A stretch of 60,475 nt of DNA from Oscillospiraceae bacterium (GTDB lineage Bacteria > Bacillota > Clostridia > Oscillospirales > Oscillospiraceae): the NCBI GenBank assembly GCA_902778665.1, contig CACYYN010000011.1, forward strand, positions 1-60,475, given 5' to 3'. Below the pieces are notes generated by a model. The model made no database searches, was not told where the DNA came from, and saw nothing but the letters and a program-made list of their open reading frames with translations. Below, in pieces: positions 121-13,271 of the stretch; position 1 is the stretch's first letter, and every line of letters begins with the position of its first letter. The position numbers were made by a program, and so were the translations under genes.

Positions 121-1176
121 TTAAGGGATGTAGATGGAGGCGCTCTGGCCGAGCTTCACGTTCTTCTCGTCAAGGGAGACGTGGACGGTGAAGTAGGCGG
201 CGTTGAGCTTTGGAATGCCGAGGGAGGAGATCTCCGTGACGGTGCCGGTGAGAACTTTAGACTCATCGGTATCCAGCGTGACGGGGACGGTATCCCCCAC
301 CTTCAGGGCGTGGAGATCCATCTCGTCCACATCGGCAACGACTTCGAGACTGTCCGTCCGGAGAAGGCGGGCAAGGACCTGACCCTTCCAGACCTGCTGT
401 CCGGAGGCAACGGGGACAGAGGCGAGCACACCGTCAGAGGGGGCGGCGACAGAGGGAGACGCGCCGAAATCGGCATCCGGAGAGAGAACCGAGAAGAGGG
501 CATCGCCCTTCTTCACAGCCTCACCGGGAGCAACCATGATCTCTGCAATGACGCCGGAGGCAGGGATGAGGAGATCATCCCGCTTTATCACCTTGCCGCT
601 GCCGGTTTTATTGTCATAGGCGTAGTCACTGTCTTTAAAAAGGTCCAGGGTTTTGCCGGAATCATACTCACCGGTGAGGACCTCAACCTCATATCCCCCG
701 TCCCGGGTGGCAATGACAACACCGGTTCCCTTTTCCTTGTCCAGCTTGAAATAAAGCTTTTCACCGATGTGAAGATGGCGGCACTCCTCATAGTCAGCTG
801 CACCGGAATAGGTGCAGGAAAGCCTGAGAGTGTTGGAAGGCTCCATAGCCAGAACGGCACCGTAACGGGAAACCGTCTGGTCGGCACTGTCCCCTGCGGA
901 GGCAAAGAGATAGCGGACGGTTCCGTCCTCCGGAGCGGTGATGACCGTGGTGAGCATGGTAAAGAGCTCCTGCCCGGCTGTGACGGCATCGCCCGCCTCC
1001 AGATCAAAAGAGGTGAGGACACCGGAACAGGGCGCGGTGAGATCATCAAAGGCTGACGCGTTGACCGTGCCGCTTGCCACGCTGTAGGCAGTGAGATCCG
1101 GCTCGGCAAAGGCAAAGGAAGAGACGGAGGCCTGGAGAAGAATCAGAACGAGGAAAATGCAACAGAGTTTTTTCAT
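121..1176 (-). CDS. periplasmic adaptor / membrane fusion protein of a MacB-type ABC exporter
   Basis: HlyD/RND-type adaptor of about 351 residues that should connect the FtsX permease encoded just upstream to the cell exterior. The ATG at 1176 is chosen because it opens a classical signal peptide (MKKLCCIFLVLILL, cleavage near AFA-EPD) and has AAAGGA 7 bases upstream; an earlier in-frame codon at 1209 would overlap the permease. Three barrel-sandwich half-motifs are visible (GVLTSFDLEAGDAVTAGQ near residue 50, GVIAEIMVAPGEAVKKGD near 205, GVLASVPVASGQQVWKGQ near 250). There is no long coiled-coil hairpin, so it is a short Gram-positive type adaptor. It is the last gene of the 4242-121 transport operon. 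Confidence 0.8.
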   Translation of the reverse strand: MKKLCCIFLVLILLQASVSSFAFAEPDLTAYSVASGTVNASAFDDLTAPCSGVLTSFDLEAGDAVTAGQELFTMLTTVITAPEDGTVRYLFASAGDSADQTVSRYGAVLAMEPSNTLRLSCTYSGAADYEECRHLHIGEKLYFKLDKEKGTGVVIATRDGGYEVEVLTGEYDSGKTLDLFKDSDYAYDNKTGSGKVIKRDDLLIPASGVIAEIMVAPGEAVKKGDALFSVLSPDADFGASPSVAAPSDGVLASVPVASGQQVWKGQVLARLLRTDSLEVVADVDEMDLHALKVGDTVPVTLDTDESKVLTGTVTEISSLGIPKLNAAYFTVHVSLDEKNVKLGQSASIYIP

Positions 1177-1198
1177 GGAGAATCCTTTCCGGAAGAGA

Positions 1199-3547
1199 TT
1201 ATTCCACACTTTTCAGCGCTTCCACCATGTTGATGCTGCGTACCTTGCGGGTGAGGATCCACTCCACAAACACGGCAAACACAAAGGTGATGACGCTGGA
1301 AATCAGAACAGACGAGATGCTCACATGGCCGACGAAGACCATGGAGTCAAATTCACAGGTTTTGAGAATGATGCTCACCAGAGCGATGCCGGGGGGAATG
1401 CCCAGAAGCACGCCGAGAAAAGCGGTGGCGGAGCTTTCACGGAGCATCAGAGAGCGGATTTCACGCTGGTGATAGCCCAGAACCTTCAGCGTGGCATAGT
1501 CACGAATGCGTTCGGTGAAGTTCATGAGGCCCATGTTGTAGCAGATGACAAAGGCAAGCCCAAGTGCAGCCCCGGACATGATGGAGAAGGCGGTGGCCGT
1601 GGCATCGAGAATGGTCATGCCCTCGGCATATTGGGTTTCCAGATATTTGACGGTATCGGTCTCAGGCAGTTCACGGATGCGGTGAAGAGTGAGATCGGAG
1701 GGAGATTTCAGCAGCAGGGCCGTGGGGGTGAAGTCACCCTTGCGGCAGGCCTCCCAGGCAGAGCGGGAGAGATAGATGCCCTGCCCCACATTTACATCGG
1801 CAAAGTCGTCCACGGTGAGTTTCAGAGGGTCTGTATCCCCGGGGAGGTAAACCTTCACAGCGTCCCCAAGGGAGATGCCCATGATGGAGGCAAGCTTGCG
1901 GCTGATGACAAGATTTCTCTCCGGCATGGGGAGAATCTGCTGATCGGCAGTGAGACGGACGATGGTCTGGCCATCCTCCAGCACGGTTAAAAGGCAGGCT
2001 CTCGCTGCGTCGCCCCCATGGAGGGAGACGGAAACCTCCATAACGCCCTCGCAAACGTCGGCATCCAGCCGGGAACGATAGCTCTCCAGTGTGCCGGCGA
2101 GGCCGGATTTGAGATCAACACGCACATCGTAAGTGAGGGTGCCCCCGTAATACTGCCGCATAAAGAAGTTGATGGACTCAATGAGGCCGAAGGTGGCAAT
2201 GATGAGCATGTTGCAGCAGATGATGCCCACCAGCAGAATCGCCGTGCGCCCCTTGTTGCGGAAGAGGTTGCGGATGATCATTTTGCTGTTGAAGGAAAGG
2301 GAGCTCCAGAGTTTATGAAACCGCTCGAGGAAAATGCGTGTGCCGCCTTTCGGCGGTTTGGGCCGCAAAAGCTCGGCGGGTGATTCCCTCAGAGAGCGGC
2401 GAAGCGTCCACAGGCAGATGACCACCGAGAGGACAACGGACAGAACCGTCATCCCCCAGGCAGAAAAGCTGATGGGAGGGATGAGCATATAGGGATAGCG
2501 GGAGTTGTGGACCATCATGGTCCAGAGGATCTCCGGCAGGGTGTACCACCCCACGAAAAGCCCCGTAAAGGAACCGATGACGGAGGGAATGAGGGCATAC
2601 CAGATATAATGCCGGCGGATTTTTCTGCCGGTATAGCCCAGCTCCTTGAGGGTGCCGATCTCCATGCGCTGTTTATCAATCATGCGTTTGAGGGTGGACA
2701 CCACAATCAGTGCAGCGACCGAGAAGGCCAGCACCGGGAACACGTAGGTCATACCGCGGAACATGACGGCATAGCCTCTCGCGGTGGACACGTTGTTGTG
2801 AGCCTTCGTGGTGACCACCAGAGCAGAGGGCATGGTGGTTTCAATGGCCATGCGCACGCTGTTTTCGTCGGCTCCGGGCTCCATTTTCACAAGCACGTTG
2901 GTATAGGGCAGATCCGGCAGTGCACTGTGAGAGAGAAGAATAAAGCCGTAATGCTCCGGTTCGGGGACGGTGCCACGGGAGGTGACGGTATATTCCGGCG
3001 AGAGGACCGTACCGCGAATGGTAAAGCGGACGCTCTGCCCGGCAACAACAAGGGTGACGGAATCGCCCACAGAGAGGTTATGGGCCTTCGCAAACTGCTC
3101 CTCCATCAGGCAGCCGTGCACATCCCCGCTGCGGAGAAGACTGCCGGAACGAAGATAGGGCCTGTTGATGGCCATGTCACCCTCATAGATTTCAAGAGCG
3201 GCCTGCACATCCTCCCCCATGCTGTCCACATCCACGGTGATGGAGGTTCTGGGCTGGATCTGACTGACGCCGGGAATATGGCGCAGGCTTTCCAGCTCCT
3301 GCCGGGAGACGGAAGAGGCGTGCACCCAGAAATCCGTCAGGTTGCACTCGGCAAAATAGGTCTCTACGGTATGGTCCATGAGACGCCATGTCCCGTCCAG
3401 CCCGGAAAAGACCCAGGTGCCGAGAAAGCAGAGAAGCACCATGGCGATGATCTGCATGGAATTGGACCGGAGATCGCGCAGAAGCTTTCTGCCGAGAGGA
3501 TGCCGTGTGCCGCCGCTTTTGGAAGAAGTGGCAGTACGGGTCACCAT
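1199..3547 (-). CDS. ABC transporter permease, FtsX/MacB family
   Basis: Integral membrane permease of 782 residues with two FtsX domains. One N-terminal membrane segment (about residues 30-50) precedes an extracytoplasmic MacB-like core domain. Three further segments follow (about 275-385), then a second soluble domain, and a last group of segments at about 655-775. The conserved LGYTGRKIRRHYIW and LGYHQREIRSLMLRES coupling helices follow the two FtsX cores. The start overlaps the end of the ATPase gene by 7 bases (ATGGTGA), so the two are translationally coupled. In this family the permease does mechanotransmission or export of peptides, lipids or drugs rather than import; no substrate can be read from the sequence. 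Confidence 0.88.
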   Translation of the reverse strand: MVTRTATSSKSGGTRHPLGRKLLRDLRSNSMQIIAMVLLCFLGTWVFSGLDGTWRLMDHTVETYFAECNLTDFWVHASSVSRQELESLRHIPGVSQIQPRTSITVDVDSMGEDVQAALEIYEGDMAINRPYLRSGSLLRSGDVHGCLMEEQFAKAHNLSVGDSVTLVVAGQSVRFTIRGTVLSPEYTVTSRGTVPEPEHYGFILLSHSALPDLPYTNVLVKMEPGADENSVRMAIETTMPSALVVTTKAHNNVSTARGYAVMFRGMTYVFPVLAFSVAALIVVSTLKRMIDKQRMEIGTLKELGYTGRKIRRHYIWYALIPSVIGSFTGLFVGWYTLPEILWTMMVHNSRYPYMLIPPISFSAWGMTVLSVVLSVVICLWTLRRSLRESPAELLRPKPPKGGTRIFLERFHKLWSSLSFNSKMIIRNLFRNKGRTAILLVGIICCNMLIIATFGLIESINFFMRQYYGGTLTYDVRVDLKSGLAGTLESYRSRLDADVCEGVMEVSVSLHGGDAARACLLTVLEDGQTIVRLTADQQILPMPERNLVISRKLASIMGISLGDAVKVYLPGDTDPLKLTVDDFADVNVGQGIYLSRSAWEACRKGDFTPTALLLKSPSDLTLHRIRELPETDTVKYLETQYAEGMTILDATATAFSIMSGAALGLAFVICYNMGLMNFTERIRDYATLKVLGYHQREIRSLMLRESSATAFLGVLLGIPPGIALVSIILKTCEFDSMVFVGHVSISSVLISSVITFVFAVFVEWILTRKVRSINMVEALKSVE

Positions 3548-4242
3548 TGAATGTCCTCCACGCGCATAGGCGTCGGGTTGACGGTGACCTCCTGAACAGA
3601 TCCGTTGTGCAGCCGGATGATCTTGTTGCCCAGCGGGGCAATGGAGGAGTTATGGGTGATCATGACAACCGTCGTGCCGAAGTCACGACAGAGGCGGGTG
3701 AGCAGCTCCAGAACCTGCTCACCGGTTCGGCTGTCGAGAGCTCCGGTGGGCTCGTCACAGAGGAGAAGGGCCGGGTTTTTGCACAGGGCCCTGGCAATGG
3801 AAACTCGCTGCTGCTCGCCGCCGGAGAGCTGTGAGGGGAAGTTATCCATCCGCTCCCCCAGCCCCACCTGCTCCAGCACCTCCTGGGGATTGAGAGCGTT
3901 GCTGCAGACCTGCCGGGCCAGCTCCACATTCTCCAGCGCCGTCAGGTTCTGCATCAGGTTATAAAACTGGAAGACAAAACCCACGTCAATGCGCCGGTAT
4001 TCCGTGAGCTGCCGGTCTGAAAGGGCTGTGATCTCCTTGCCGCCGACGGTGATGATGCCGGAGGTGGCTCTGTCCATCCCGCCGAGCAGGTTCAGGCAGG
4101 TGGTTTTGCCCGAGCCGGAGTTCCCGTAAATCACGCAGAGCTCGCCCTTGTCGATGGAAAAGGACACATGGTCGGCTGCATGGACCACCACTTCACCGGT
4201 GATATAATCTTTGCAGACGGAATCAAATTCAATATAACTCAT
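3541..4242 (-). CDS. ABC transporter ATP-binding protein, MacB/LolD type
   Basis: Cytoplasmic ATPase of 233 residues that powers the FtsX permease. Walker A is GNSGSGKTT (residues 40-48), the Q-loop is FVFQFYNLM, the signature LSGGEQQRVSIARAL lies near 139, Walker B LLLCDEPTGALD near 162, and the H-loop is MITHN. The spacing and the PTGALD Walker B are typical of the MacB/LolD/BceA group that pairs with FtsX permeases. It heads the ATPase-permease-adaptor group; an imperfect hairpin at 4266-4292 separates it from the STAS gene upstream. Confidence 0.9.
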   Translation of the reverse strand: MSYIEFDSVCKDYITGEVVVHAADHVSFSIDKGELCVIYGNSGSGKTTCLNLLGGMDRATSGIITVGGKEITALSDRQLTEYRRIDVGFVFQFYNLMQNLTALENVELARQVCSNALNPQEVLEQVGLGERMDNFPSQLSGGEQQRVSIARALCKNPALLLCDEPTGALDSRTGEQVLELLTRLCRDFGTTVVMITHNSSIAPLGNKIIRLHNGSVQEVTVNPTPMRVEDIQW

Positions 4243-4325: not shown

Positions 4326-4625
4326 TTATTCAATGGTGAGGATATCCACAAAGCCGGTAACCTCAAAGATCTCCATCACCACGTCATTGACGTTGATAAT
4401 CTTCATGCTGCCCTGCTTGCTCATAATCTTCTGGGCGGAAAGCAGAACACGAAGACCGGCGGAAGAGATATACTCCAGTTTTGCAAAATCCATCACCAGT
4501 TCGGTCACGTTGGCAAGGCTGTCTTTCAGGTTCTGCTCCAGCTCGGGAGCGGTGGTGGTGTCGAGGCGACCCTCGAGAGCAACGGTGAGAACGGAACCTT
4601 CGGCATTTTTATGAATGGTCAGCAT
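4326..4625 (-). CDS. STAS-domain anti-sigma factor antagonist (SpoIIAA/RsbV-like)
   Basis: Single-domain STAS protein of 99 residues. The motif YISSAGLRVLL (residues 52-62) contains Ser55, two residues before the conserved Gly, which is the position phosphorylated by partner-switching kinases in SpoIIAA and RsbV. The N-terminal EGRLDTTTAPELE matches the usual strand-turn-helix of the family. It lies 30 bases downstream of an RsbW-like ATPase gene, the normal partner arrangement. No sigma-factor gene is present in the window, so the switched partner is unknown; it could be the cyclase, the exporters or something elsewhere. Confidence 0.85.
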   Translation of the reverse strand: MLTIHKNAEGSVLTVALEGRLDTTTAPELEQNLKDSLANVTELVMDFAKLEYISSAGLRVLLSAQKIMSKQGSMKIINVNDVVMEIFEVTGFVDILTIE

Positions 4626-4655
4626 GGAATGTTTCCTCCTGTATAATATAGTAAT

Positions 4656-5276
4656 TCAGAATTTCTTAAGAATGGTGAGGGTGGCCTTGTCCCCTGCCAC
4701 ACCTACCAGCACGTCGTCGGAAAGGCTGGCAACGATGGACTTTTCCAGCTCGTCCCAGGCCCGGTCGACTTCCGGGGTCTCCTGTTTTTCGTTCAGAGCG
4801 TCTTTATAGCTGTGGAGGGACCACATGGGCACAACGTCCATCTCCATGCCGGGATCTACGCCCAGATAATCCATGGATGTGACGGGGCCGCAATATTCCG
4901 TCTGAACCTTGTTGACATAGTCATAATCCAGCAGAGCATTTTCAATCATATCGGCTATTTTGCCCATAAAGCCCTGGCGGGAGGCATTCTGCCCGGATGA
5001 GGAGGCTGCAAGGAGAGCTTCCTTTTTAGTGAGGTCCATCTTGGTTTCCACCTCAAGACAGATGTGGCAGGTTTTGCCCTCGCCCTCAATCCAGAACTGA
5101 CCTTCAAACCCGTCCGTCAGGACGCAGGCCATGCCGAGTGTCTCCTCCGCAAGGAGCTGGAGACGGATGGAATCCTTATGGCTGAGGCCGAGGCGAAACG
5201 CCATATCTTCCACGATTTTCTGGGCAGTGGCCAGCTTGATGTTGGAGCTTGCAACCCTGATTTTATTGGACTGCAT
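4656..5276 (-). CDS. degenerate RsbW-like GHKL ATPase-fold protein
   Basis: Protein of 206 residues. The ATG at 5276 is chosen for the AAAGGA 8-9 bases upstream. The N-terminal half has the layout of an anti-sigma-factor serine kinase (helix ending in LLAEETLG, residues 41-48, like the N-box EEALxN of RsbW). However, the Mg-binding Asn is replaced by Met49, and no DxGxG box can be found. The C-terminal half (from about residue 110) does not resemble the standard kinase and may be a new domain. The pairing with the STAS gene supports a partner-switching role. I infer it binds the STAS protein but is probably not an active kinase. Confidence 0.6.
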   Translation of the reverse strand: MQSNKIRVASSNIKLATAQKIVEDMAFRLGLSHKDSIRLQLLAEETLGMACVLTDGFEGQFWIEGEGKTCHICLEVETKMDLTKKEALLAASSSGQNASRQGFMGKIADMIENALLDYDYVNKVQTEYCGPVTSMDYLGVDPGMEMDVVPMWSLHSYKDALNEKQETPEVDRAWDELEKSIVASLSDDVLVGVAGDKATLTILKKF

Positions 5277-5326
5277 AAATCGGTGTCCTTTCTTCCCCAT
5301 TTTAATCAATCACTTGATCAAAATTT

Positions 5327-5355
5327 ATTATAACTTATTTTATTTCAAATTACAA
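5327..5355 (-). promoter_or_regulatory. sigma-A promoter for the RsbW-like/STAS genes
   Basis: -35 TTGTAA (5350-5355), 17-bp spacer, -10 TATAAT (5327-5332) reading toward the gene at 5276, inside a very AT-rich stretch. It gives the ATPase/STAS pair a promoter separate from the cyclase gene upstream. Confidence 0.65.
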
Positions 5356-5413
5356 TACAATTACAATATTTTTCCTTCAACGGAAATCACCGGATATCAC
5401 GCCGGAAAACAGG

Positions 5414-6169
5414 TCACCGGAGGAGATTGGTGCCGAAGCCGATCACATCATGGAGGGGAATATCCTCACTGATGCCTTTTGGCCGAACCAGCAGCTCCCC
5501 GGCCGGGTTGAGGATAACCTGATCGCCGGCAGCCTCCAGTGTTTCGCTGGAGATGAGAATCTGCCCGCCCTTGCAGTAGCCCTCGATTCGGGAGGCAAGG
5601 TTCACGTTGCGGCCGATCATATCATACTTGGTGCGGAGCTTGGAACCGATGTTGCCGAGAACAGCCTCGCCGGTGTGGATGCCGATGCCCATGGCCAGGT
5701 CCGGCAGACCCTGAGAGCGGGCCCATTCATTCACCTTGCCCATTCGATTCTGCATGGCAACGGCACAGGCCACCGCATCACGGGCGGAATCGGGATTGTC
5801 CTTCGGGGCACCGAAAACCACAACGATGGCATCGCCCACGAAGGAGAGAATATTCCCCTGCCAGCAGTTGATGATAAAAATCATCTTCTCCAGATAGTTG
5901 TTCAGAAGATTGATAAAATCCGTCGGCGAGAGCTCTTCCGAGAGCTTGGTGGAATCCCGCAGGTCGGTAAACATCATGGTGACGGTTTTGCGAAATCCGC
6001 CGATTTTCAGATTCTCTTTCGATTCCAGAATCTCATCCAGCACATCATCGGTGAGAAACCGGCCGAAGGTACGGCGAATATAGGCTTCGCGCTGGGATAG
6101 CGACTGCTTCAGAGAACGGTTTTCCGCCTCGAGGGCAGCAATGCGCTGTTCAAGTTCGTTATTATTCAA
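5414..6169 (-). CDS. class III adenylate/guanylate cyclase catalytic domain protein
   Basis: Soluble protein of 251 residues: an N-terminal coiled coil (1-30), a short linker ending RRTFGRFLTDDV, then one cyclase homology domain (60-240). Both metal-binding Asp residues are present (FTDLRDST, Asp69; GDAIVVVFG, Asp113), as are the transition-state Asn190 and Arg194 in GRNVNLASRIE. The purine-contacting Asp183 is kept, but the residue that is Lys in adenylate cyclases (four before Asp113) is Ser109, so the product may not be cAMP. Translation starts at TTG (6169), overlapping the MBL gene stop by TTGA, which implies tight coupling. The coiled coil suggests dimer control, since active sites form between two subunits. 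Confidence 0.88.
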   Translation of the reverse strand: MNNNELEQRIAALEAENRSLKQSLSQREAYIRRTFGRFLTDDVLDEILESKENLKIGGFRKTVTMMFTDLRDSTKLSEELSPTDFINLLNNYLEKMIFIINCWQGNILSFVGDAIVVVFGAPKDNPDSARDAVACAVAMQNRMGKVNEWARSQGLPDLAMGIGIHTGEAVLGNIGSKLRTKYDMIGRNVNLASRIEGYCKGGQILISSETLEAAGDQVILNPAGELLVRPKGISEDIPLHDVIGFGTNLLR

Positions 6170-6963
6170 ATACTGTATACCTCACCTTCCCGTGCGAAAC
6201 GGACATTTTCACGGCGCAGAATCGCCTCCTGCAGGAGCATGATGCGGTCGGTCTTTCCCGGGTCGTGGTGGATCAGCAGCAGACGCTTAGCATTGCAGCG
6301 ATCCTTCAGCTCGATGCCGATCTCGGGTGTGGAGTGGCCGAAGCCTTTCCGTTTCGGGTATTCCTCCGTGGTATACTGCCCGTCGACCATCAGCAGATCC
6401 GCATCCCGGGCAAAGGAGACAAGCATTTCATAGGAGGCATCGTCTCTTTCATAATCGGTGACGTAAACAAGGGTTTTGCCCCGATAACGGAGGCGAAACA
6501 CCAGGCTGCCGCCGGGATGTGAGCCCGTGATCCAGTCAATTGCCACATCCCCCACCGTAAAGGGCTCTTTCAGGGCATTCACCTCCAGGCTGCCGGCATA
6601 GTCCGTCAGACTGAGAGGCCAGTAAGGAGGCGAATAGAGCCCGTTTAAAAGCGAAAGGGCATTCTCCTCTTCGTCAACGGGGAGATAAAGGCGGGTCTCC
6701 ATCCCCTTTCGGGAAAGGCGGGGATACATGCCGAGACCGATAATATGGTCCAGATGCAGATGGCTGAGAAGAATAACGGGTGTGGAGGAAAAAGAGACTG
6801 GTGCATTGACAAGGCCGCTGCCCGCATCGAGAAAAATGGTTTCCTCCCCGGCCGTGACCATGTAGCAGGAGGTGTTGCCGCCGAAAACGGAGTAATCCCT
6901 TCCGCAGACCGGCACCGAACCGCGGGTACCGAGAACCGTAAGCTGAAACAATGAGCCGCTCAC
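6166..6963 (-). CDS. MBL-fold metallo-hydrolase, candidate cyclic-nucleotide phosphodiesterase
   Basis: Metallo-beta-lactamase fold hydrolase of about 265 residues. GTG at 6963 is preferred over ATG at 6987 because the strong AAGGAGGAAGG site lies between them and the promoter start point is too close to the ATG. Metal ligands seen: HLHLDH (68-73), His149, Asp170, and His232/233 in IHHDPG. The N-terminal GTRGSVP and GGNTSC signatures are those of the RNase Z/PhnP/phosphodiesterase-like branch, which act on phosphodiesters including cyclic ones. Coupling to a cyclase gene by a 4-base overlap suggests it degrades the cyclase product, but this is inference; a tRNA or phosphonate-type substrate is not excluded. 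Confidence 0.75.
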   Translation of the reverse strand: MSGSLFQLTVLGTRGSVPVCGRDYSVFGGNTSCYMVTAGEETIFLDAGSGLVNAPVSFSSTPVILLSHLHLDHIIGLGMYPRLSRKGMETRLYLPVDEEENALSLLNGLYSPPYWPLSLTDYAGSLEVNALKEPFTVGDVAIDWITGSHPGGSLVFRLRYRGKTLVYVTDYERDDASYEMLVSFARDADLLMVDGQYTTEEYPKRKGFGHSTPEIGIELKDRCNAKRLLLIHHDPGKTDRIMLLQEAILRRENVRFAREGEVYSI

Positions 6964-7007
6964 TGCAAACCCTTCCTCCTTCTGCATCCAAGTGCATTTT
7001 CAAGGGA

Positions 7008-7036
7008 ATTATAGCATCTCTTTTCCGGAAGTGCAA
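7008..7036 (-). promoter_or_regulatory. promoter for MBL hydrolase-cyclase operon
   Basis: -35 TTGCAC (7031-7036), 17-bp spacer, -10 TATAAT (7008-7013), firing leftward into the hydrolase gene. It is divergent from the promoter at 7109-7137, with about 70 bases between the two -35 boxes. Confidence 0.6.
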
Positions 7037-7108
7037 TGAAAACTCCCTAGAAGATGGCTCTTTCAGCCCCATATCTGACAATATTTACGGACCGTTCAAA
7101 ATCATTTC

Positions 7109-7137
7109 TTGCATTGAAGACAATCGTGTTGTATAAT
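7109..7137 (+). promoter_or_regulatory. promoter for the two cyclic-nucleotide-binding proteins
   Basis: -35 TTGCAT (7109-7114), 17-bp spacer, perfect -10 TATAAT (7132-7137); the start point falls about 50 bases before the GGAGG ribosome site of the first gene. Confidence 0.7.
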
Positions 7138-7196
7138 ACTGCGATAGAAGACAAACAAACTACATCTGAAAAATTAACTGGGAGGAATACGAAACC

Positions 7197-7664
7197 ATGA
7201 ACATCAAAACCTATTCTCGCGGTGAGATAATTTTCCGCGAGGGTGACGCAGGCGATTGTGTCTATGAGCTCTCCTGCGGCAGCGTTGGCATCTACGCCAA
7301 CTATGGCAAGGAGAATGAACAGAAGATTTCCGAACTGATGGGCGAGCAGTTCTTCGGTGAGATGGGCCTGCTGGAACATGCCCCCCGTTCCGCAACGGCT
7401 GTTGCCCTGGAGGAAGGAACCTGCGTCGATGTCATCACAGAAGACAACTTCAATGAGTTCTTCAAGGAGAACCCGGCCAAAGTGCTGATGATGATCCAGC
7501 AGATGTGCCACCGCCTTCGCAGAACCACCGATGACTATCTGGAAGTCTGCCGCACCGCCCACGATGTGGTCACCACGGAAAAGGCCGGCAAGCAGCAGCC
7601 TCTCGGCCTGAAGGCCAGTATCCGGAAGTTCTGCGAGTTCTACAAAGAACTCCTCGGGATCTGA
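7197..7664 (+). CDS. stand-alone cyclic-nucleotide-binding (CNB) domain protein 1
   Basis: Protein of 155 residues consisting of one CRP-type CNB domain plus a C-terminal helical tail. The phosphate-binding cassette FFGEMGLLEHAPRSATAVA (residues 52-70) contains the Glu that binds the ribose 2'-OH and Arg64 that binds the cyclic phosphate, so it should bind a cyclic nucleotide. There is no helix-turn-helix, unlike CRP/FNR regulators. It must therefore act by binding another protein, perhaps the partner-switch proteins or an exporter encoded nearby. First gene of a two-gene unit, GGAGG 8 bases before ATG. Confidence 0.88.
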   Translation: MNIKTYSRGEIIFREGDAGDCVYELSCGSVGIYANYGKENEQKISELMGEQFFGEMGLLEHAPRSATAVALEEGTCVDVITEDNFNEFFKENPAKVLMMIQQMCHRLRRTTDDYLEVCRTAHDVVTTEKAGKQQPLGLKASIRKFCEFYKELLGI

Positions 7665-7681
7665 TTGAAAGGAGAGTTTCC

Positions 7682-8143
7682 ATGAAAAACATGACCTTTA
7701 ACTGCAACGATGTGATTTTTAAGCAGGGAGATTTTGCAGAGACCATGTATGACGTTGTGAGCGGCAAAGTGGGCGTCTATGCAGATTTCCAGACCGATAA
7801 GGAACAGCTTCTGGCCTGCTTCGGCCCGGGAGAAACCTTCGGTGAGATGGGCATGCTGGAAGTGTATCCCCGTTCCGCCACTGCTGTTGCCCTGGAAGAC
7901 GGCACCGTGATTGCCGAAATCGCAGAGCCGGAACTCACCGAGTATTTCCAGAGTGCACCGGAGAAGCTGCTGAACATCATGCGTCAGCTCAGCAAAAGAA
8001 TCCGTGAGACCAACGATAAATACGTCAACGCCTGCCGTGCCATCTATGAAAACGAGAAGGGTGCAGAAGATGAGGCACAGGCCGAATGGGTCAGAGACGA
8101 GCTTCAGGCTCTCACAAAAGCCTACGAGTATAACGCCATCTGA
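7682..8143 (+). CDS. stand-alone cyclic-nucleotide-binding (CNB) domain protein 2
   Basis: Tandem paralogue of the preceding gene (153 residues) starting 17 bases after its stop with AAAGGAG before ATG. The cassette is TFGEMGMLEVYPRSATAVA (52-70) with Arg64 at the same position as in the first copy. Again there is no DNA-binding domain. The two copies differ clearly outside the cassette, including a Glu-rich C-terminal helix here, so they may form a heterodimer or serve two targets. Confidence 0.87.
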   Translation: MKNMTFNCNDVIFKQGDFAETMYDVVSGKVGVYADFQTDKEQLLACFGPGETFGEMGMLEVYPRSATAVALEDGTVIAEIAEPELTEYFQSAPEKLLNIMRQLSKRIRETNDKYVNACRAIYENEKGAEDEAQAEWVRDELQALTKAYEYNAI

Positions 8144-8158
8144 TCTGTATTATACTGC

Positions 8159-9004
8159 ATGAAAATTGACTTTAAAAATATTGGCTGCCTGCCGGGATAT
8201 CCCGGCAGGCAGTTGATTCTCACGCTGGTGATGATTCTGATGCTTCTGCTGCCCTTTTCGGTGGCAGAGGCGGAGGAAAACACGGCTGCACAACGGGGCA
8301 AAGAGGCACTGACTGCCACGGGCCATGCACAGTTTCTGCAGTTTCCGGAAGAGGAGGATTATCTGCCGGAAATGAAAACCCTCTATGCACGCAAAGCCTT
8401 TCACGCACCCTGCCTTGAGGTGAAGGAAGTGCCGGATCAGAAGGTGATGGGACGGAACATGCCCTATCTCTATGAGGGGACGGCCGTCACGGTAGTTGCC
8501 GAGCAGGGAGAAATGTCCTGCATCATCTATCCCGGCAGCAACAACAAAACCTATTGCGGCTGGATCAGAAGCATCCGCCTGCTGGAGGAATTCCCCGGGG
8601 AACAGTACACAGCCAGTACAGAGCCGGCGTCTGGTGAAAGAACGGTAAGGGAAGACATCACCTGCTCCTGGGGAGAGCTGGGATATGCGAAATACTGGCA
8701 TCCCTATACCAAGCTTTCAAGCGAGGTGCAAAACTGCATCGGCTTTACGCTGGAGTATCAGATGATTGCGGAAAACACGGAAAAGTGGGGCAATATCTTC
8801 GGCGACAGAGTCATCATGATCTGTTCTGGGCAGGAATGGATTGAGGTAGGCCGATTCCCCTATCCGGAGCAGGGTGCCGTAAAGGTGCAGGTGTGGCTGG
8901 AGGAGCCGGAGACCGTCACGGCAGTCTGCACGAGAGCACAGTGCCTTGAGCCGGACACACCCGATATCCGGCAGCTTGCCTATGATTTCATCACTGCCGG
9001 ATAA
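8159..9004 (+). CDS. secreted protein with a possible SH3-like domain, function unknown
   Basis: Not recognised as a named family. The frame encodes 281 residues with a signal peptide whose charged region ends in GRQ, a hydrophobic core LILTLVMILMLLLPF and cleavage near AEA-EEN. Residues about 85-125 (ending YCGWIRSIRLLEEF) look like an SH3b-type surface domain; the rest is beta-rich. The start is uncertain: ATG 8159 has no ribosome site and a 28-bp perfect palindrome lies at codons 9-18, while ATG 8231 would leave a signal peptide with no charged region. It converges with the FtsX gene with a 3-base gap and may be the extracellular component of this island. Confidence 0.55.
   Translation: MKIDFKNIGCLPGYPGRQLILTLVMILMLLLPFSVAEAEENTAAQRGKEALTATGHAQFLQFPEEEDYLPEMKTLYARKAFHAPCLEVKEVPDQKVMGRNMPYLYEGTAVTVVAEQGEMSCIIYPGSNNKTYCGWIRSIRLLEEFPGEQYTASTEPASGERTVREDITCSWGELGYAKYWHPYTKLSSEVQNCIGFTLEYQMIAENTEKWGNIFGDRVIMICSGQEWIEVGRFPYPEQGAVKVQVWLEEPETVTAVCTRAQCLEPDTPDIRQLAYDFITAG
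8185..8212. terminator. 28-bp perfect palindrome, probable bidirectional terminator
   Basis: Perfect inverted repeat built from CTGCCTGCCGGGAT and its complement with no loop bases to spare. On the minus strand it is followed by CCAATATTTTT, a reasonable U-tract; on the plus strand by TTGATTCT. It could end CNB transcription or leftward read-through from the FtsX operon. It lies inside the first codons of the secreted-protein frame. Confidence 0.5.
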
Positions 9005-9007
9005 AGC

Positions 9008-11890
9008 CTACTGAATGTCATTCAGCTTCAGCTTGCGGATGCGCCGCAGGGCAAACCCGTTGGTGACCCCTGAAAAAACAAAGGTAAAGAGGGCGGAAAA
9101 GAGGAAGGATTCCAGCCGAGGTTCACGGATGGCCTGAAGGTCCGGCGTTTCGAGAATATGGAGAATGCGAGATCCCATCAATCCGCCTAAAGCCAGCCCG
9201 ATGGCAGTGCCAAGAACGGTGGTGACAATCAGGTCCAGCTGCAGATAGCGGATGCACTCCCCGATGGAAAAGCCGTTGATGCACATGATGGTGAGTTCCG
9301 GCGTCTTTCGCTGGATGAAGGTGACCGTGAAGTTTGCCACGATAAAACAGGCCATCATAGCGGCAATCATCAGCATCAGATACACCACGAAATTCAGCGA
9401 GGCGTTGAACTGCTCAATCAGTGTGCGACCGGCCGCAGCATCATTCACAGCCAGAATACCGGGGACGTCAGCAAACCACTGCTGAACCTCAGAAAGGGGC
9501 ATACCGCCTGTTTTGACAAAAAAGCAGTTGGGAGCGGAGGGTGTATCGAAGATTTTTTCATACCCCTGGGGCGTCAGGAAGAAGATCTGGCCGAAGTAGT
9601 TTTCAAACACATCGGAAACCCGGACTTCCCGCCGGTTCATCCCGGAGGAGAACACCGTGACTGCCCCGCCCGAGTTGATGCCGTAATATTCCGAGAAGCG
9701 CCTCGGCACCAGTGCACCCTCATCCGGCAATTCGAGAGGCTCAGAAGTAAGAATCGAACGGAGATGATAAAACCCGTCCAGCGATCCCCTCTCGGCCACA
9801 ATCAGGGTGAGGGGGTTGAGCTTACCGTTAAACGCAAAAACAGTGCTCTCCTTACGCACGGGCACATACTGCAGGCTGGTCTGATCCAGCCTGTTTTTAA
9901 TTGTCTCTGCGGTTTCCTCCCCTGCAACGGTTTCAAAGAGGATTTCCGCATCATAGGTCATGATATCACCGAACTGCCGGACCGGAATACCGCTGATGCC
10001 GTAGCGAATGGTGAAGCCCACTACCATCAGCACACAGCCACCCGCAATGCTGACAATGGTGACCAGAACACGGTTTTTATCCGTCATCATATTACGTAGA
10101 ATCAGCCGGAAAAAGAGACTGCGTTTTGCGGATGAACCCCGTTTTCTACGCCCGGAGGAGATGGACGAGCCCTGTATCAGACTCAGGGCAGATTGGCGAA
10201 GCAGCCCGGCACAACCCAGATACACCGCCAGGAAAGAGACAATGAGTCCTCCGCCCAACACAATGGCCGTATCTGTTTTCAGGAAAGACTTCGTGCCGAC
10301 ACCGTAGTTCAGATGGGCTTCATAAGAGCTCAGCACTGCCCGCTGCATCGGGAGGTAGGCCAGCCCTACACCAAGCCCCACACCAAGCAGCACAGCGAAG
10401 CATGCAAAAAAGAGATATTTTGCAAAAATCTCCCGGTTAAAGAGGCCCAGAGCCTTATTCACGCCGATGAGCTTTCGCTGCTGCTCCACCATACGGGATA
10501 TGGTGGCATAGATAACCAGTGCACCCACAATGAGAAAGATGACGGAGAAAGACATGCTGAGAGAAGCAAGCTTGTTTGAATTTGCAATGCCGTAGACGAA
10601 GCCGGGATTGGTGTTGTTGTCAAACACAACCCACCGGCAGGTGCCGACGGAATTCATTTTATCTTTCGCGTCAGCAAGCTGCTGCTCCCCGTCTTTGATC
10701 TGCTGTTCCCCGTCTCTGATCTGCTGCTCCCCTTCCTGCAGCTGCTTTTTGCCCTTCTCAAAACGGGTGAGGCCGTCCAGATATTCCTCGCCGGAGTAAT
10801 ACCAGTCGTTCCGTTTTTTCTCCAGCTCCTTTTCGGCAAAGTCAAAAAGCATCTCAAGGCTGGAGCCGTTTAAGTGATCCGCCATCCAGGCATACTTGGG
10901 GAATTGAGCTGCAACTTCAGTGTCTACAGTGCCTGTGTCGATCATACGCTGGGTTCTGGCCAGCAGATAGCCGGTATAATCCAGCAGCTCCTTCATATGG
11001 CCCAGCTGCTCTTCGGCTGCTTCCAGTTCACGCCGGCCGTCTTCCAGTTTTTTCATAGACGCACGAAGCTGTTCCCTGGCAGCTTCGATTTTTTCTTCCC
11101 CTTCACGAATCTGGTCTTCAAATCCGCTTCGGAGATCGTCACTCCGCATGGGAGCACGCACGTCTGCTAACGTCTCCAGATCAGCAATCACTTCGTCTAT
11201 GAAGTTGTTATAATCCTCTCCGTACCGATCCTCCGGTGCACCGTCAATCCGGAGGCGGGCCTTCATGAATGCCCCGTTCAGACCTTCCAGATTGAAAGCG
11301 TTCTCCGGCACCATCAGGTAAGGCGTTACCGGAACCAGATAGCTGAAATGATCCGGCGAATAGACGATGCCGGTGACGGTAAAGCTGTGAACAGCCAGCG
11401 GATCCACTTCCATCAGAGCATCACAGCTCACCGTGATGCTCTGGCCGACGGAATACCCGTCCTCATCCGCCAGCTTTTTCTCAATAGCGCATTCGTCTGC
11501 CCGTTCCGGCAGGCGCCCTTCAACAAGAATCGGTTTTGAAATATCTCCGGGCAGGCTGATCACCGTGACGTCACCCTCACGGTCCATCACGGGAAGATCC
11601 CCCTCCACCTGCCAGACACGCTCCGCTTCCCTCACATTTTCGAGTGCCCGGATAGCGTCCAGGTCCTCATCCGTCATCAGCATGGTGGAGGTGACCTCCA
11701 CATCCCAGAATCCGGTGCGGTTAAAGAAGCTCAATGCGTCTTTTTTCAGTGTGGCGGCGGAATAGACGATGCCGAGATAGGCCAGGGCTGCCAGCAGGCC
11801 GATCATCACAATGGAAATAAAAGCGACAAATTCCTTTCGGATATTGCGCCTTGCATCCAGAAACTGCGTTTTTTTCATCTTACCATACAA
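9008..11890 (-). CDS. large FtsX-family ABC permease with extracellular coiled coil
   Basis: Permease of 960 residues. The start at 11890 (MYGKMKK) is supported by AAAGGA 6 bases upstream and an 11-base overlap with the ATPase gene. N-terminal membrane segment (about 20-45), then a long extracellular region that includes heptad-rich helices (about 255-300 and 365-400, with EGEQQI-DGEQQI-DGEQQL repeats). Three membrane segments surround 440-560, then a second periplasmic-type domain and the C-terminal FtsX segments (about 830-945). This layout resembles large Firmicute FtsX proteins that handle lipids, cell-wall enzymes or peptides. Its partner is the GAF-ABC ATPase, so the exporter appears to be gated by a small-molecule sensor. 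Confidence 0.87.
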   Translation of the reverse strand: MYGKMKKTQFLDARRNIRKEFVAFISIVMIGLLAALAYLGIVYSAATLKKDALSFFNRTGFWDVEVTSTMLMTDEDLDAIRALENVREAERVWQVEGDLPVMDREGDVTVISLPGDISKPILVEGRLPERADECAIEKKLADEDGYSVGQSITVSCDALMEVDPLAVHSFTVTGIVYSPDHFSYLVPVTPYLMVPENAFNLEGLNGAFMKARLRIDGAPEDRYGEDYNNFIDEVIADLETLADVRAPMRSDDLRSGFEDQIREGEEKIEAAREQLRASMKKLEDGRRELEAAEEQLGHMKELLDYTGYLLARTQRMIDTGTVDTEVAAQFPKYAWMADHLNGSSLEMLFDFAEKELEKKRNDWYYSGEEYLDGLTRFEKGKKQLQEGEQQIRDGEQQIKDGEQQLADAKDKMNSVGTCRWVVFDNNTNPGFVYGIANSNKLASLSMSFSVIFLIVGALVIYATISRMVEQQRKLIGVNKALGLFNREIFAKYLFFACFAVLLGVGLGVGLAYLPMQRAVLSSYEAHLNYGVGTKSFLKTDTAIVLGGGLIVSFLAVYLGCAGLLRQSALSLIQGSSISSGRRKRGSSAKRSLFFRLILRNMMTDKNRVLVTIVSIAGGCVLMVVGFTIRYGISGIPVRQFGDIMTYDAEILFETVAGEETAETIKNRLDQTSLQYVPVRKESTVFAFNGKLNPLTLIVAERGSLDGFYHLRSILTSEPLELPDEGALVPRRFSEYYGINSGGAVTVFSSGMNRREVRVSDVFENYFGQIFFLTPQGYEKIFDTPSAPNCFFVKTGGMPLSEVQQWFADVPGILAVNDAAAGRTLIEQFNASLNFVVYLMLMIAAMMACFIVANFTVTFIQRKTPELTIMCINGFSIGECIRYLQLDLIVTTVLGTAIGLALGGLMGSRILHILETPDLQAIREPRLESFLFSALFTFVFSGVTNGFALRRIRKLKLNDIQ
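10679..10741 (-). repeat. three tandem 21-bp repeats encoding heptads
   Basis: Three near-identical 21-base units within the FtsX gene encode EGEQQIR, DGEQQIK and DGEQQLA. They are in phase with a coiled-coil heptad, so copy number could vary without breaking the frame. Confidence 0.75.
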
Positions 11891-13118
11891 GATCCTTTGC
11901 CGCTGCCGGATGAAGATTGACCCGGATGCTGGCGATCATGCCGTTTCTCAGTTTTACAACCCGGTTTGCCATGCGGGCGATCTCCGGATTGTGAGTGATC
12001 ATCACAACGGTCGCTCCCCTGCTCTGCACGATCTGCTCAAACACCGAGAGCACCTCAATGCTGGTCTGATAATCCAGAGCTGCAGTGGGCTCATCGGCAA
12101 AAATAATCTTCGGCTTTTTCACAATGGCGCGTGCGATGGAAACTCTCTGCTGCTGCCCGCCAGACAGTGCCGCCGGGAAGTTATCGGCCCGGTCTGTCAG
12201 GCCCACCTTTGCAATGGCTTCTGCAGCCGGCATGGGGTCCTTCACCAGATCCGCAATGAACTGGACGTTTTCCTGCGCCGTCAGATTCGGCATGAGATTA
12301 TACTGCTGAAATACAAACCCCATATATTCCCGGCGAAATATCGTAAGCTCGGCATCGGTCGGCCGTGAGAAGTCCTTCCCGTCGATCATCAGGCTGCCGT
12401 CCGTGAGCTGATCCATGCCGCCGATGATGTTCACCAGGGTTGACTTGCCGCAGCCGGATTCCCCGAGAATCACCACAAATTCATTTTTATAAAGCTCCAG
12501 ATTGATCCCCTTGAGCACACGGATAACACCTTCCCCCGAGGGGAACTCCTTGATCACATTGCGAAGGGTGATGAGCACATCCTTTTTTTCTCCCACGGAG
12601 ACGGCAAAGCCCTTTTCCTCCATGGTGATTGCCGCAAGAGCCGCAATACGCTCACAAAGCTGCACCTCTTCCTCATCGTAGGAAGATCCGTCCGTTTTGT
12701 TGGCAATCTGAATGCAACCCAGTGTCTGGCCGGGGCTCTTCACAGGCACGCACAGCATATTGCGAACCTGCGGGCCGCAATCGTCAAGCACACTGCCGGG
12801 ATAGTCCTCCGTGAGGGTGTCCCGGATGAGGAGTGTTTTTCCGCTGCGTGTCACAGTGCCTTCCACCCCGAGGCCGTTTTCCACGGTGATATTGGTGAAG
12901 CTGACAGGCCCGATATGGCAGAGAGGCATAAGAAGGTTTGTGTCCTTCGCCAGAAGCCAGATGGCACCTTCCTCACACTTCAGAACGCTGACAATCATCT
13001 CCAGAGCACCGTTGAGAGCCTCTGTAATATCATCCGTCTCCAGCACAAGCCGCAGAAGATTCATCAGTTCGCCGAGAAGCCGATTGTTTTTCACGCGATT
13101 CACCGCCTCAGTCATCAT
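11880..13118 (-). CDS. GAF domain-ABC ATPase fusion (MacB/LolD type)
   Basis: Protein of 412 residues in two parts. Residues 10-170 form a GAF domain (GAIWLLAKD, GLGVEGTV, MLCVPVKSPGQTLGCIQIANK, then the closing helix). Residues 180-412 form an ABC ATPase with Walker A GESGCGKST (219-227), QQYNLMPNLT Q-loop, LSGGQQQRVSIARAI signature (318-332), IIFADEPTAALD Walker B and MITHN H-loop. GAF domains bind small ligands, in several enzymes cyclic nucleotides, and this locus encodes a cyclase and CNB proteins. I infer ligand-controlled ATPase activity. Two ATG codons start the gene, with no clear ribosome site. It overlaps the permease gene by 11 bases. Confidence 0.88.
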   Translation of the reverse strand: MMTEAVNRVKNNRLLGELMNLLRLVLETDDITEALNGALEMIVSVLKCEEGAIWLLAKDTNLLMPLCHIGPVSFTNITVENGLGVEGTVTRSGKTLLIRDTLTEDYPGSVLDDCGPQVRNMLCVPVKSPGQTLGCIQIANKTDGSSYDEEEVQLCERIAALAAITMEEKGFAVSVGEKKDVLITLRNVIKEFPSGEGVIRVLKGINLELYKNEFVVILGESGCGKSTLVNIIGGMDQLTDGSLMIDGKDFSRPTDAELTIFRREYMGFVFQQYNLMPNLTAQENVQFIADLVKDPMPAAEAIAKVGLTDRADNFPAALSGGQQQRVSIARAIVKKPKIIFADEPTAALDYQTSIEVLSVFEQIVQSRGATVVMITHNPEIARMANRVVKLRNGMIASIRVNLHPAAAKDLVW

Positions 13119-13182: not shown

Positions 13183-13211
13183 AAAATTAAGGCCTGCCGG
13201 GATCAGCAGGC
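13183..13211 (-). terminator. terminator downstream of the lipoprotein gene
   Basis: GCCTGC/GCAGGC stem followed on the minus strand by CCTTAATTTTTT. A second hairpin (AGGCAGGG/CCCTGCCT, 13238-13257) lies between it and the stop codon. Confidence 0.65.
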
Positions 13212-13271
13212 TATTCTTTTGCGCAAGGGATGTCATCAGGCAGGGTCTCCCCTGCCTGTTTTCGTTCAGAT

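Follow-up and report, generated by a model that had tools for sequence, protein, structure and literature searches.

Within a 60,475-nucleotide stretch of DNA from an Oscillospiraceae bacterium (assembly GCA_902778665.1, contig CACYYN010000011.1, positions 1 to 60,475; called the window below, its genome being G000, of 79 contigs and 84% complete) lies a group of genes for a class III nucleotide cyclase, a metallo-beta-lactamase (MBL)-fold hydrolase, two stand-alone cyclic nucleotide-binding (CNB) proteins, a STAS protein, an RsbW-like protein and an ABC exporter whose ATPase, GAF-ABC, has its own GAF domain. The window is the fullest local assembly of what we take, with a probability of roughly 0.5, to be a cyclic-mononucleotide module of gut-type Clostridia and Coriobacteriales, in which CNB pairs would read the nucleotide and, in this genus, a STAS switch would probably set the cyclase and the exporter would be coupled to the module. 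The grouping is beyond chance, yet it consists of recurring pairwise links and no fixed island. That cyclase, MBL and CNB proteins belong to one pathway has good support, and for a coupling to the STAS protein and the GAF-ABC exporter the support is gene order, seen in the minority of relatives within one genus.

The observations behind this reading are the domains and residues of the proteins, the overlaps of genes, the recurrence of gene order and the co-occurrence of families. In a quick, midpoint-rooted tree of 111 rows the window cyclase belongs to clade A, 26 rows of Clostridia and Coriobacteriales (SH-aLRT 100) that stand separate from clade B, a Firmicutes group, and from relatives in cyanobacteria, proteobacteria and elsewhere. 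Of the 101 genus genomes compared, 30 have a cyclase of clade A or B, 31 have the CNB family (E <= 1e-8) and 29 have both (the exceptions are G213, G217 and G247; Fisher 8e-22, shared ancestry being ignored here and below), while the MBL family (E <= 1e-20) occurs in 32, every one of which has a cyclase of some clade (Fisher 2e-21). Of the cyclases, only those of clades A and B are linked to the CNB family: the clade-C cyclases (CHASE2-type and other distant ones), rejected as CNB partners, do not track it, the family being found in 2 of their 9 genomes. These cyclases do often have an MBL gene nearby.

Gene order was compared at 16 clade-A and 20 clade-B loci from other genomes of the genus, a run being a series of strand-consistent genes with gaps below 200 nt. 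The MBL and cyclase genes share a run at 12 of the 16 clade-A loci, the STAS and cyclase genes at six, and the cyclase, GAF-ABC, permease FtsX2 and a predicted secreted protein, X281, also at six; a PP2C gene stands in the cyclase run at four. A CNB gene is in the cyclase run at 2/16 clade-A loci versus 19/20 in clade B. Two loci (L073 and L074) bring together in a single run the genes for a MATE-like protein, PP2C, HATPase, STAS, MBL, cyclase, GAF-ABC, FtsX2 and X281, and by the tree the exporter-linked clade-A loci are split between at least two branches (L076 and L077 as opposed to L069 and L072 to L074). Among deduplicated rows, a CNB gene lies within four open reading frames (ORFs) of the cyclase in 10/24 of clade A and 27/29 of clade B, and an MBL gene adjoins it on the same strand in 20/24 and 10/29, respectively. 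Within the same distance, STAS is found in 6/24 of the sensor-less clade A and FtsX2 likewise in 6/24, with 0/29 of clade B for each, and all six STAS and six FtsX2 cases come from the genus. The named loci, compared along with those of the genus, are the best 80 of a longer list; six of them, being copies of genus loci, were dropped before tree and counts. The clade-B locus G034:C145 was left out, and the split clade-B locus of G212 (L233) enters the genome counts only. The nearest loci among the matches listed are from metagenome-assembled genomes (MAGs) with the labels Clostridia, Ruminococcaceae, Lachnospiraceae, Eubacteriales and Coriobacteriales, and the titles of several point to sheep or roe deer gut.

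Layout of the locus and the cyclase-hydrolase pair

The genes in question are these, with their database matches:

5414..6169, minus strand: class III nucleotide cyclase, TTG start (Pfam Guanylate_cyc, PF00211, E 2e-27)
6166..6987, minus strand: MBL-fold hydrolase, candidate cyclic-nucleotide phosphodiesterase (Pfam Lactamase_B_2, E 3e-15)
7197..7664, plus strand: CNB1, stand-alone CNB domain with C-terminal tail (Pfam cNMP_binding, PF00027, E 9e-20)
7682..8143, plus strand: CNB2, stand-alone CNB domain, tandem paralogue of CNB1 (Pfam cNMP_binding, PF00027, E 4e-20)
4326..4625, minus strand: STAS protein of RsbV/SpoIIAA type (Pfam STAS, PF01740, E 2e-15)
4656..5309, minus strand: RsbW/SpoIIAB-like protein, apparently degenerate (low-confidence fold match)
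8159..9004, plus strand: X281, protein of the GAF-ABC/FtsX unit predicted to be secreted (signal peptide judged by eye)
9008..11890, minus strand: FtsX2, permease of the GAF-ABC exporter (Pfam FtsX and MacB_PCD)
11880..13118, minus strand: GAF-ABC, exporter ATPase with N-terminal GAF (Pfam GAF at residues 30-165, 3e-14; ABC_tran at 202-346, 9e-36)
3541..4242, minus strand: ABC1, ATPase of a second, MacAB-like exporter (Pfam ABC_tran)
1199..3547, minus strand: FtsX1, permease of the second exporter (Pfam FtsX and MacB_PCD)
121..1209, minus strand: HlyD-type adaptor of the second exporter (Pfam HlyD_3)

The minus strand thus reads MBL hydrolase (6987-6166), cyclase (6169-5414), RsbW-like (5309-4656), STAS (4625-4326) and then ABC1, FtsX1 and HlyD (4242-121), the ABC1 gene following 83 nt past the STAS gene; on the plus strand CNB1, CNB2 and X281 (7197-9004) stand head to head with MBL and convergent with GAF-ABC and FtsX2 (13118-9008, minus). 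A preliminary description of this DNA had listed a class III cyclase, an MBL protein, two CNB proteins, a STAS protein and a GAF-ABC protein, all of which ORFs and Pfam place here, and had claimed an overlap of genes, which for MBL and cyclase amounts to 4 nt; its parts list left out X281 (8159-9004), the FtsX permease (9008-11890) and the second exporter (121-4242). GAF-ABC and FtsX2 overlap by 11 nt, given a TTG start for FtsX2. The divergent promoters of that description reduce to the head-to-head layout of the genes, because promoter-like sites are no commoner than in shuffled sequence (8, against 6.9 +/- 2.6); the counts from promoter and terminator scans alike match those of shuffles.

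The cyclase has the Guanylate_cyc domain, the two metal-binding aspartates and the Asn-Arg transition-state pair of a class III enzyme, and these four residues are kept in 25/25 clade-A rows, the window included. (Residue counts are of clade-A rows above a 55% identity line, L148, at 52%, being counted as "other" although the tree places it in clade A.) Its specificity pair is Ser-Asp, with serine in place of the lysine that specifies adenine and aspartate as second residue, which is neither the Lys-Asp pair of class III adenylyl cyclases nor the Glu-Gly pair of the Cya2-type guanylyl cyclase. Across clade A the lysine position holds Asp in 10, Glu in 8, Ser in 3 (the window among them), Ala in 2 and Gly in 2, and the second residue is Asp in 25/25; clade B has Glu at the lysine position in 29/29 and the Glu-Gly pair in 27/29. 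As the catalytic residues are kept and the clade-B pair is that of Cya2, the cyclase is expected to be active and clade B to consist of guanylyl cyclases; the residues of clade A do not name its product. The closest PDB sequences are 6fht and 2w01, both Cya2 of Synechocystis. At its N-terminus the window cyclase has a coiled-coil-like stalk and no sensor domain that Pfam found, and the clade-B proteins, of about 460-540 aa, have a common N-terminal region, with PAS in the one scanned. The window genome has one further class III cyclase, of CHASE2 type, beside a GAF-HD protein (L023, G000:C16), with no MBL match within the 19 kb examined. Clade-C cyclases of the genus in L228, L229 and L230 lie near a gene of the same family as the window MBL, and the gene between encodes a GAF-HD protein in the one scanned (L229).

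The window MBL protein has the fold of a class II (MBL) phosphodiesterase and its HxHxDH site, here HLHLDH, in which H76, H78, D80 and H81 are invariant in 13 aligned proteins. The best Foldseek match of its model (pLDDT 87) is YhfI of B. subtilis (E 1e-14; Apyc1, 4e-11), with 20-22% identity to the YhfI chains, and the best PDB match by sequence profile is 6kns (E 1e-17), the entry that also ranks first by fold; the cyclic nucleotide phosphodiesterase model NF041851 matches at 54.5 bits, below its cut-off of 400. In the part of PMC9117128 that concerns these enzymes, YhfI prefers cAMP and cGMP and Apyc1 cleaves cyclic mononucleotides broadly. The cyclase would make a cyclic nucleotide and the overlapping YhfI-like MBL would hydrolyse it. 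The cyclase-MBL gene pair recurs with two MBL types, because an MBL of a second type adjoins related cyclases (11 proteins, mostly of cyanobacteria and desulfobacteria and including one from a Riflebacteria MAG); the three scanned (two cyanobacterial, one from Riflebacteria) match the Pfam Apyc1 model, and a ten-protein profile of this type matches the window MBL (E 9e-10, probability 96%).

Six clade-B-type loci (L092:5090-5845, L168:7859-8638, L150, L179, L196 and L209) have an AP_endonuc_2 TIM-barrel protein directly before the cyclase and no MBL seen beside it; PF01261 matches the two scanned, and the others were grouped by BLAST. This protein is a candidate for a non-homologous replacement of the phosphodiesterase.

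The CNB pair, the switch and the exporter

Both CNB proteins exceed the PF00027 cut-off, and the intact phosphate-binding cassettes ascribed to them earlier are indeed present: Glu (E55) and Arg (R64) are kept, and G54 E55 M56 and P63 R64 S65 A66 are invariant in 19 aligned CNB proteins. Pfam found no HTH, TIR, membrane, nuclease or other output domain in CNB1 or CNB2. In most CNB loci seen the genes form tandem pairs. Two CNB domains share one chain in 10 of the 74 CNB proteins examined (one counted twice, L093/L190), and 50 of the 64 single-domain proteins are 130-189 aa long; in some pairs the second member has a ParB_N-like domain at its end (PF02195, matched by the one scanned at 26.2 bits, slightly below the cut-off of 26.3). 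The pairs would serve as paired adaptors, and CNB1 and CNB2, neither with an output domain, would bind the nucleotide, probably together. Elsewhere the window genome has a further CNB pair (L115, G000:C30:1-9000), whose second member is short and ParB-like at its end; downstream of this pair are three genes containing STAS and one for a SpoIIE-type phosphatase.

The STAS protein scores 72 bits with TIGR00377, above the cut-off of 53, and has the conserved serine and SSAG site of a partner-switch STAS protein, the site YISSAGLR being identical in the window protein and six cyclase-linked ones. The preliminary description had paired it with an RsbW-like GHKL protein; Pfam and TIGR00377 uphold the STAS half, but the other has no Pfam match in any of 8 family members and a SpoIIAB/RsbW-like fold match of low confidence. 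The ten best fold rows include one chain, presumably SiaB, from the SiaB-SiaC entry, and a PDB search with the RsbW-like profile gave no relevant match. RsbW-like genes occur in 10 of 150 genomes of the family and 27 of the 101 of the genus, and their neighbours include ABC exporters and PP2C proteins. RsbW-like domains are also found inside proteins of 1310-1321 aa, at the C-terminus of one (L018:9489-13421), which, as the one scanned, also has a mechanosensitive-channel domain (PF00924), and in L235 (a 1321-aa ORF at 8095).

Because the cyclase has a bare stalk and no sensor, the STAS partner switch is most likely, in the genus, what sets its activity, by analogy with SiaC on the SiaD stalk; the cyclase itself, and not a step below it, may be where the switch acts. 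In L074 (13578-15353), L070, L071 and L073 the PP2C-STAS-MBL-cyclase run is preceded by a gene for a protein of 584-591 aa, MATE-like by eye and with an HATPase-like end. Switch and exporter genes are also linked at loci that have no cyclase, namely L124 and L125 (PP2C, a protein nucleosidase-like by eye, STAS, GAF-ABC, FtsX2 and X281), the clade-A cyclase being elsewhere in the genome, and L223 and L224 (RsbW-like, GAF-ABC, FtsX2 and STAS), whose genomes have no clade A/B cyclase.

An exporter ATPase with a GAF domain of its own, as first described, is borne out by the Pfam matches (GAF 3e-14, ABC_tran 9e-36). X281 has no Pfam or NCBIfam match, and its start codon is uncertain, with a palindrome (8185-8212) just within the ORF. 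GAF-ABC or FtsX2 adjoins it in 17 of 27 copies examined (a hand count; further copies exist), and it occurs in 14/17 clade-A genomes versus 16/84 others (p 1e-6). The GAF-ABC/FtsX/X281 exporter, and perhaps the second exporter too, would be run by the same circuit. A bolder version, in which a Ser-Asp class III cyclase under a STAS switch, with the CNB pair as a heteromeric adaptor, gates the GAF-ABC/FtsX exporter as a one-operon route in Clostridia, we consider rather unlikely.

Competing explanations

A number of observations weigh against the module as we read it. The exact gene set of the window is in none of the relatives examined; as no relative locus holds it, the claim of one conserved nine-kilobase island was dropped and the pairwise links kept. 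At 3 of the 16 genus loci (L065, L067 and L068) the cyclase has no partner in its run, one of these genomes having the CNB pair and MBL as a run of their own elsewhere (L114), and MBL is missing from 2 of the 30 clade A/B genomes (G180 and G186). None of the nine named clade-A loci from beyond the genus sample, of which three are on contigs below 10 kb, has STAS or FtsX2 beside the cyclase, and FtsX2 is absent near clade-B cyclases, as counted above. A PP2C protein is present in three clade-B runs (L081, L087 and L090), and the contrast between sensor and switch is therefore weakened. X281 is not enriched in genomes with clade B only (5/13, p 0.52), and GAF-ABC with X281 is found in genomes without a clade A/B cyclase (G190 and G230); RsbW-like/STAS units also occur in such genomes. 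The RsbW-like protein, tried as a marker of the system, was rejected, with no association with the cyclase (clade A/B in 5 of 27 RsbW-like genomes, p 0.22), and it has no N-box Asn. No SpoIIE (PP2C) phosphatase is encoded on the window contig, five being found elsewhere in the 84%-complete genome. An intact NKFDE motif, the mark of cyclic-nucleotide-binding GAF domains, is absent from the window GAF, which reads NK...Y...E-V; among 15 GAF-ABC proteins N-[KR] is present in 12 and the final Glu in none. Lastly, the Fisher tests take no account of shared ancestry, clade assignment was manual and a good many of the genomes are incomplete.

The proposals of the preliminary description accordingly hold in part. 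As to conservation of neighbours, the cyclase, MBL and CNB pairs do recur, but the STAS and exporter links were seen only in loci of the genus and the exact set in none of the relatives examined; as to its single circuit, the cyclase-MBL-CNB co-occurrence in the 101 genomes and the cyclase-exporter and STAS runs (6/16 each) speak for it, but the RsbW-like association (p 0.22) and the GAF motif do not.

In a rival explanation, which we regard as a tentative but serious possibility, three independent modules (cyclase-MBL-CNB, the RsbW-like/STAS switch and the GAF-ABC/FtsX exporter) are neighbours in a region rich in signalling genes, and the first of them alone would make up one pathway. The exporter units of genomes without a clade A/B cyclase, the RsbW-like genes of 22 such genomes, the lack of FtsX2 near 29 clade-B cyclases and the nine named clade-A loci with neither STAS nor FtsX2 beside the cyclase are all in its favor. 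It does not account as readily for runs with gaps below 200 nt that join cyclase and exporter at 6/16 loci and STAS and cyclase at 6/16, with all three in L073 and L074, or for the spread of exporter-linked loci over at least two branches of clade A.

A CRP-like housekeeping pathway of cAMP or cGMP, with the exporters as passengers or ordinary regulated genes, appears improbable. The CNB proteins do match CRP models, as well as PKG/PKA and CRP chains, by sequence, and CNB pairs are also found far from the cyclase, beside unrelated genes, for instance following Liv-transporter-like genes (by eye) in two genomes (L101 and L105). However, the window CNB proteins have no HTH or other output domain, most single-domain CNB proteins are as short as given above, and the specificity pair Ser-Asp is neither the adenylyl Lys-Asp nor the Glu-Gly of Cya2. 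A Pycsar-like antiphage system, in which a cyclase is paired with a CNB effector, is very improbable. The cyclase does match PADLOC PycC models (best E 1e-20), and CNB1 (2e-9) and CNB2 (3e-12) match Pycsar TIR-effector models, without cut-offs, but these matches are generic and span only the shared cyclase and CNB domains; Pfam found no TIR, membrane or nuclease part in either CNB protein. The module also includes a candidate phosphodiesterase of its own and is met again in many related genomes.

Relation to described systems

The window cyclase resembles the guanylyl cyclase Cya2 (2w01; 6fht is a fusion with the E488K change) in its catalytic core and in the FGR[FY] transducer motif before it. 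Unlike Cya2, for which the portions of PMC4215837 and PMC5995499 concerned give a Glu-Gly pair and a CHASE2 sensor, respectively, it has Ser-Asp and no sensor that was found. The MBL protein has the fold and HxHxDH site of the class II phosphodiesterases YhfI and Apyc1, but is distant from YhfI in sequence, and its gene overlaps that of the cyclase. In SiaABCD of Pseudomonas aeruginosa, a PP2C protein, a kinase and a STAS-like protein set a nucleotide cyclase, SiaC binding the stalk helix of SiaD, as stated in the relevant section of PMC8457831. SiaD is a diguanylate cyclase and SiaC belongs to DUF1987, whereas the window has a class III cyclase and a STAS protein of PF01740, together with CNB readers and a candidate phosphodiesterase. 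The CHASE2 cyclase-phosphodiesterase clusters of Campylobacterota, so far as PMC9239204 sets them out in the part concerned, are alike in that both genes are conserved adjacently; there a cyclase of CHASE2 type is accompanied by FecR and TPR proteins, whereas here a sensor-less cyclase is accompanied by CNB pairs, STAS and an FtsX exporter. Exporters of the MacAB/LolCDE type share the ABC_tran ATPase and FtsX/MacB_PCD permease, but the window ATPase carries GAF, and its unit includes X281, of no known family.

We recognised no paper on this gene set in the literature searched, which left most subscription papers outside. Most Firmicutes (69 of 78 representatives) are reported in PMC5217690 to be probably without adenylate cyclases. 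A candidate maker, breaker and reader pair of a cyclic nucleotide recur here in a genus of Clostridia and in some MAGs of Lachnospiraceae and Coriobacteriales. If the reading is right, a partner switch would be tied to a class III cyclase, as SiaABCD is to a diguanylate cyclase, and to an exporter as well, and stand-alone CNB pairs would be a new kind of reader. Each step is testable in vitro, since the proteins concerned (cyclase, MBL, CNB and STAS) are small, with no membrane segment predicted.

The palindrome at 8185-8212 has a 12-bp stem and follows the CNB2 stop, ahead of the likely signal peptide of X281 but still within the X281 ORF as listed; a sequence resembling it is found at 13191-13212.

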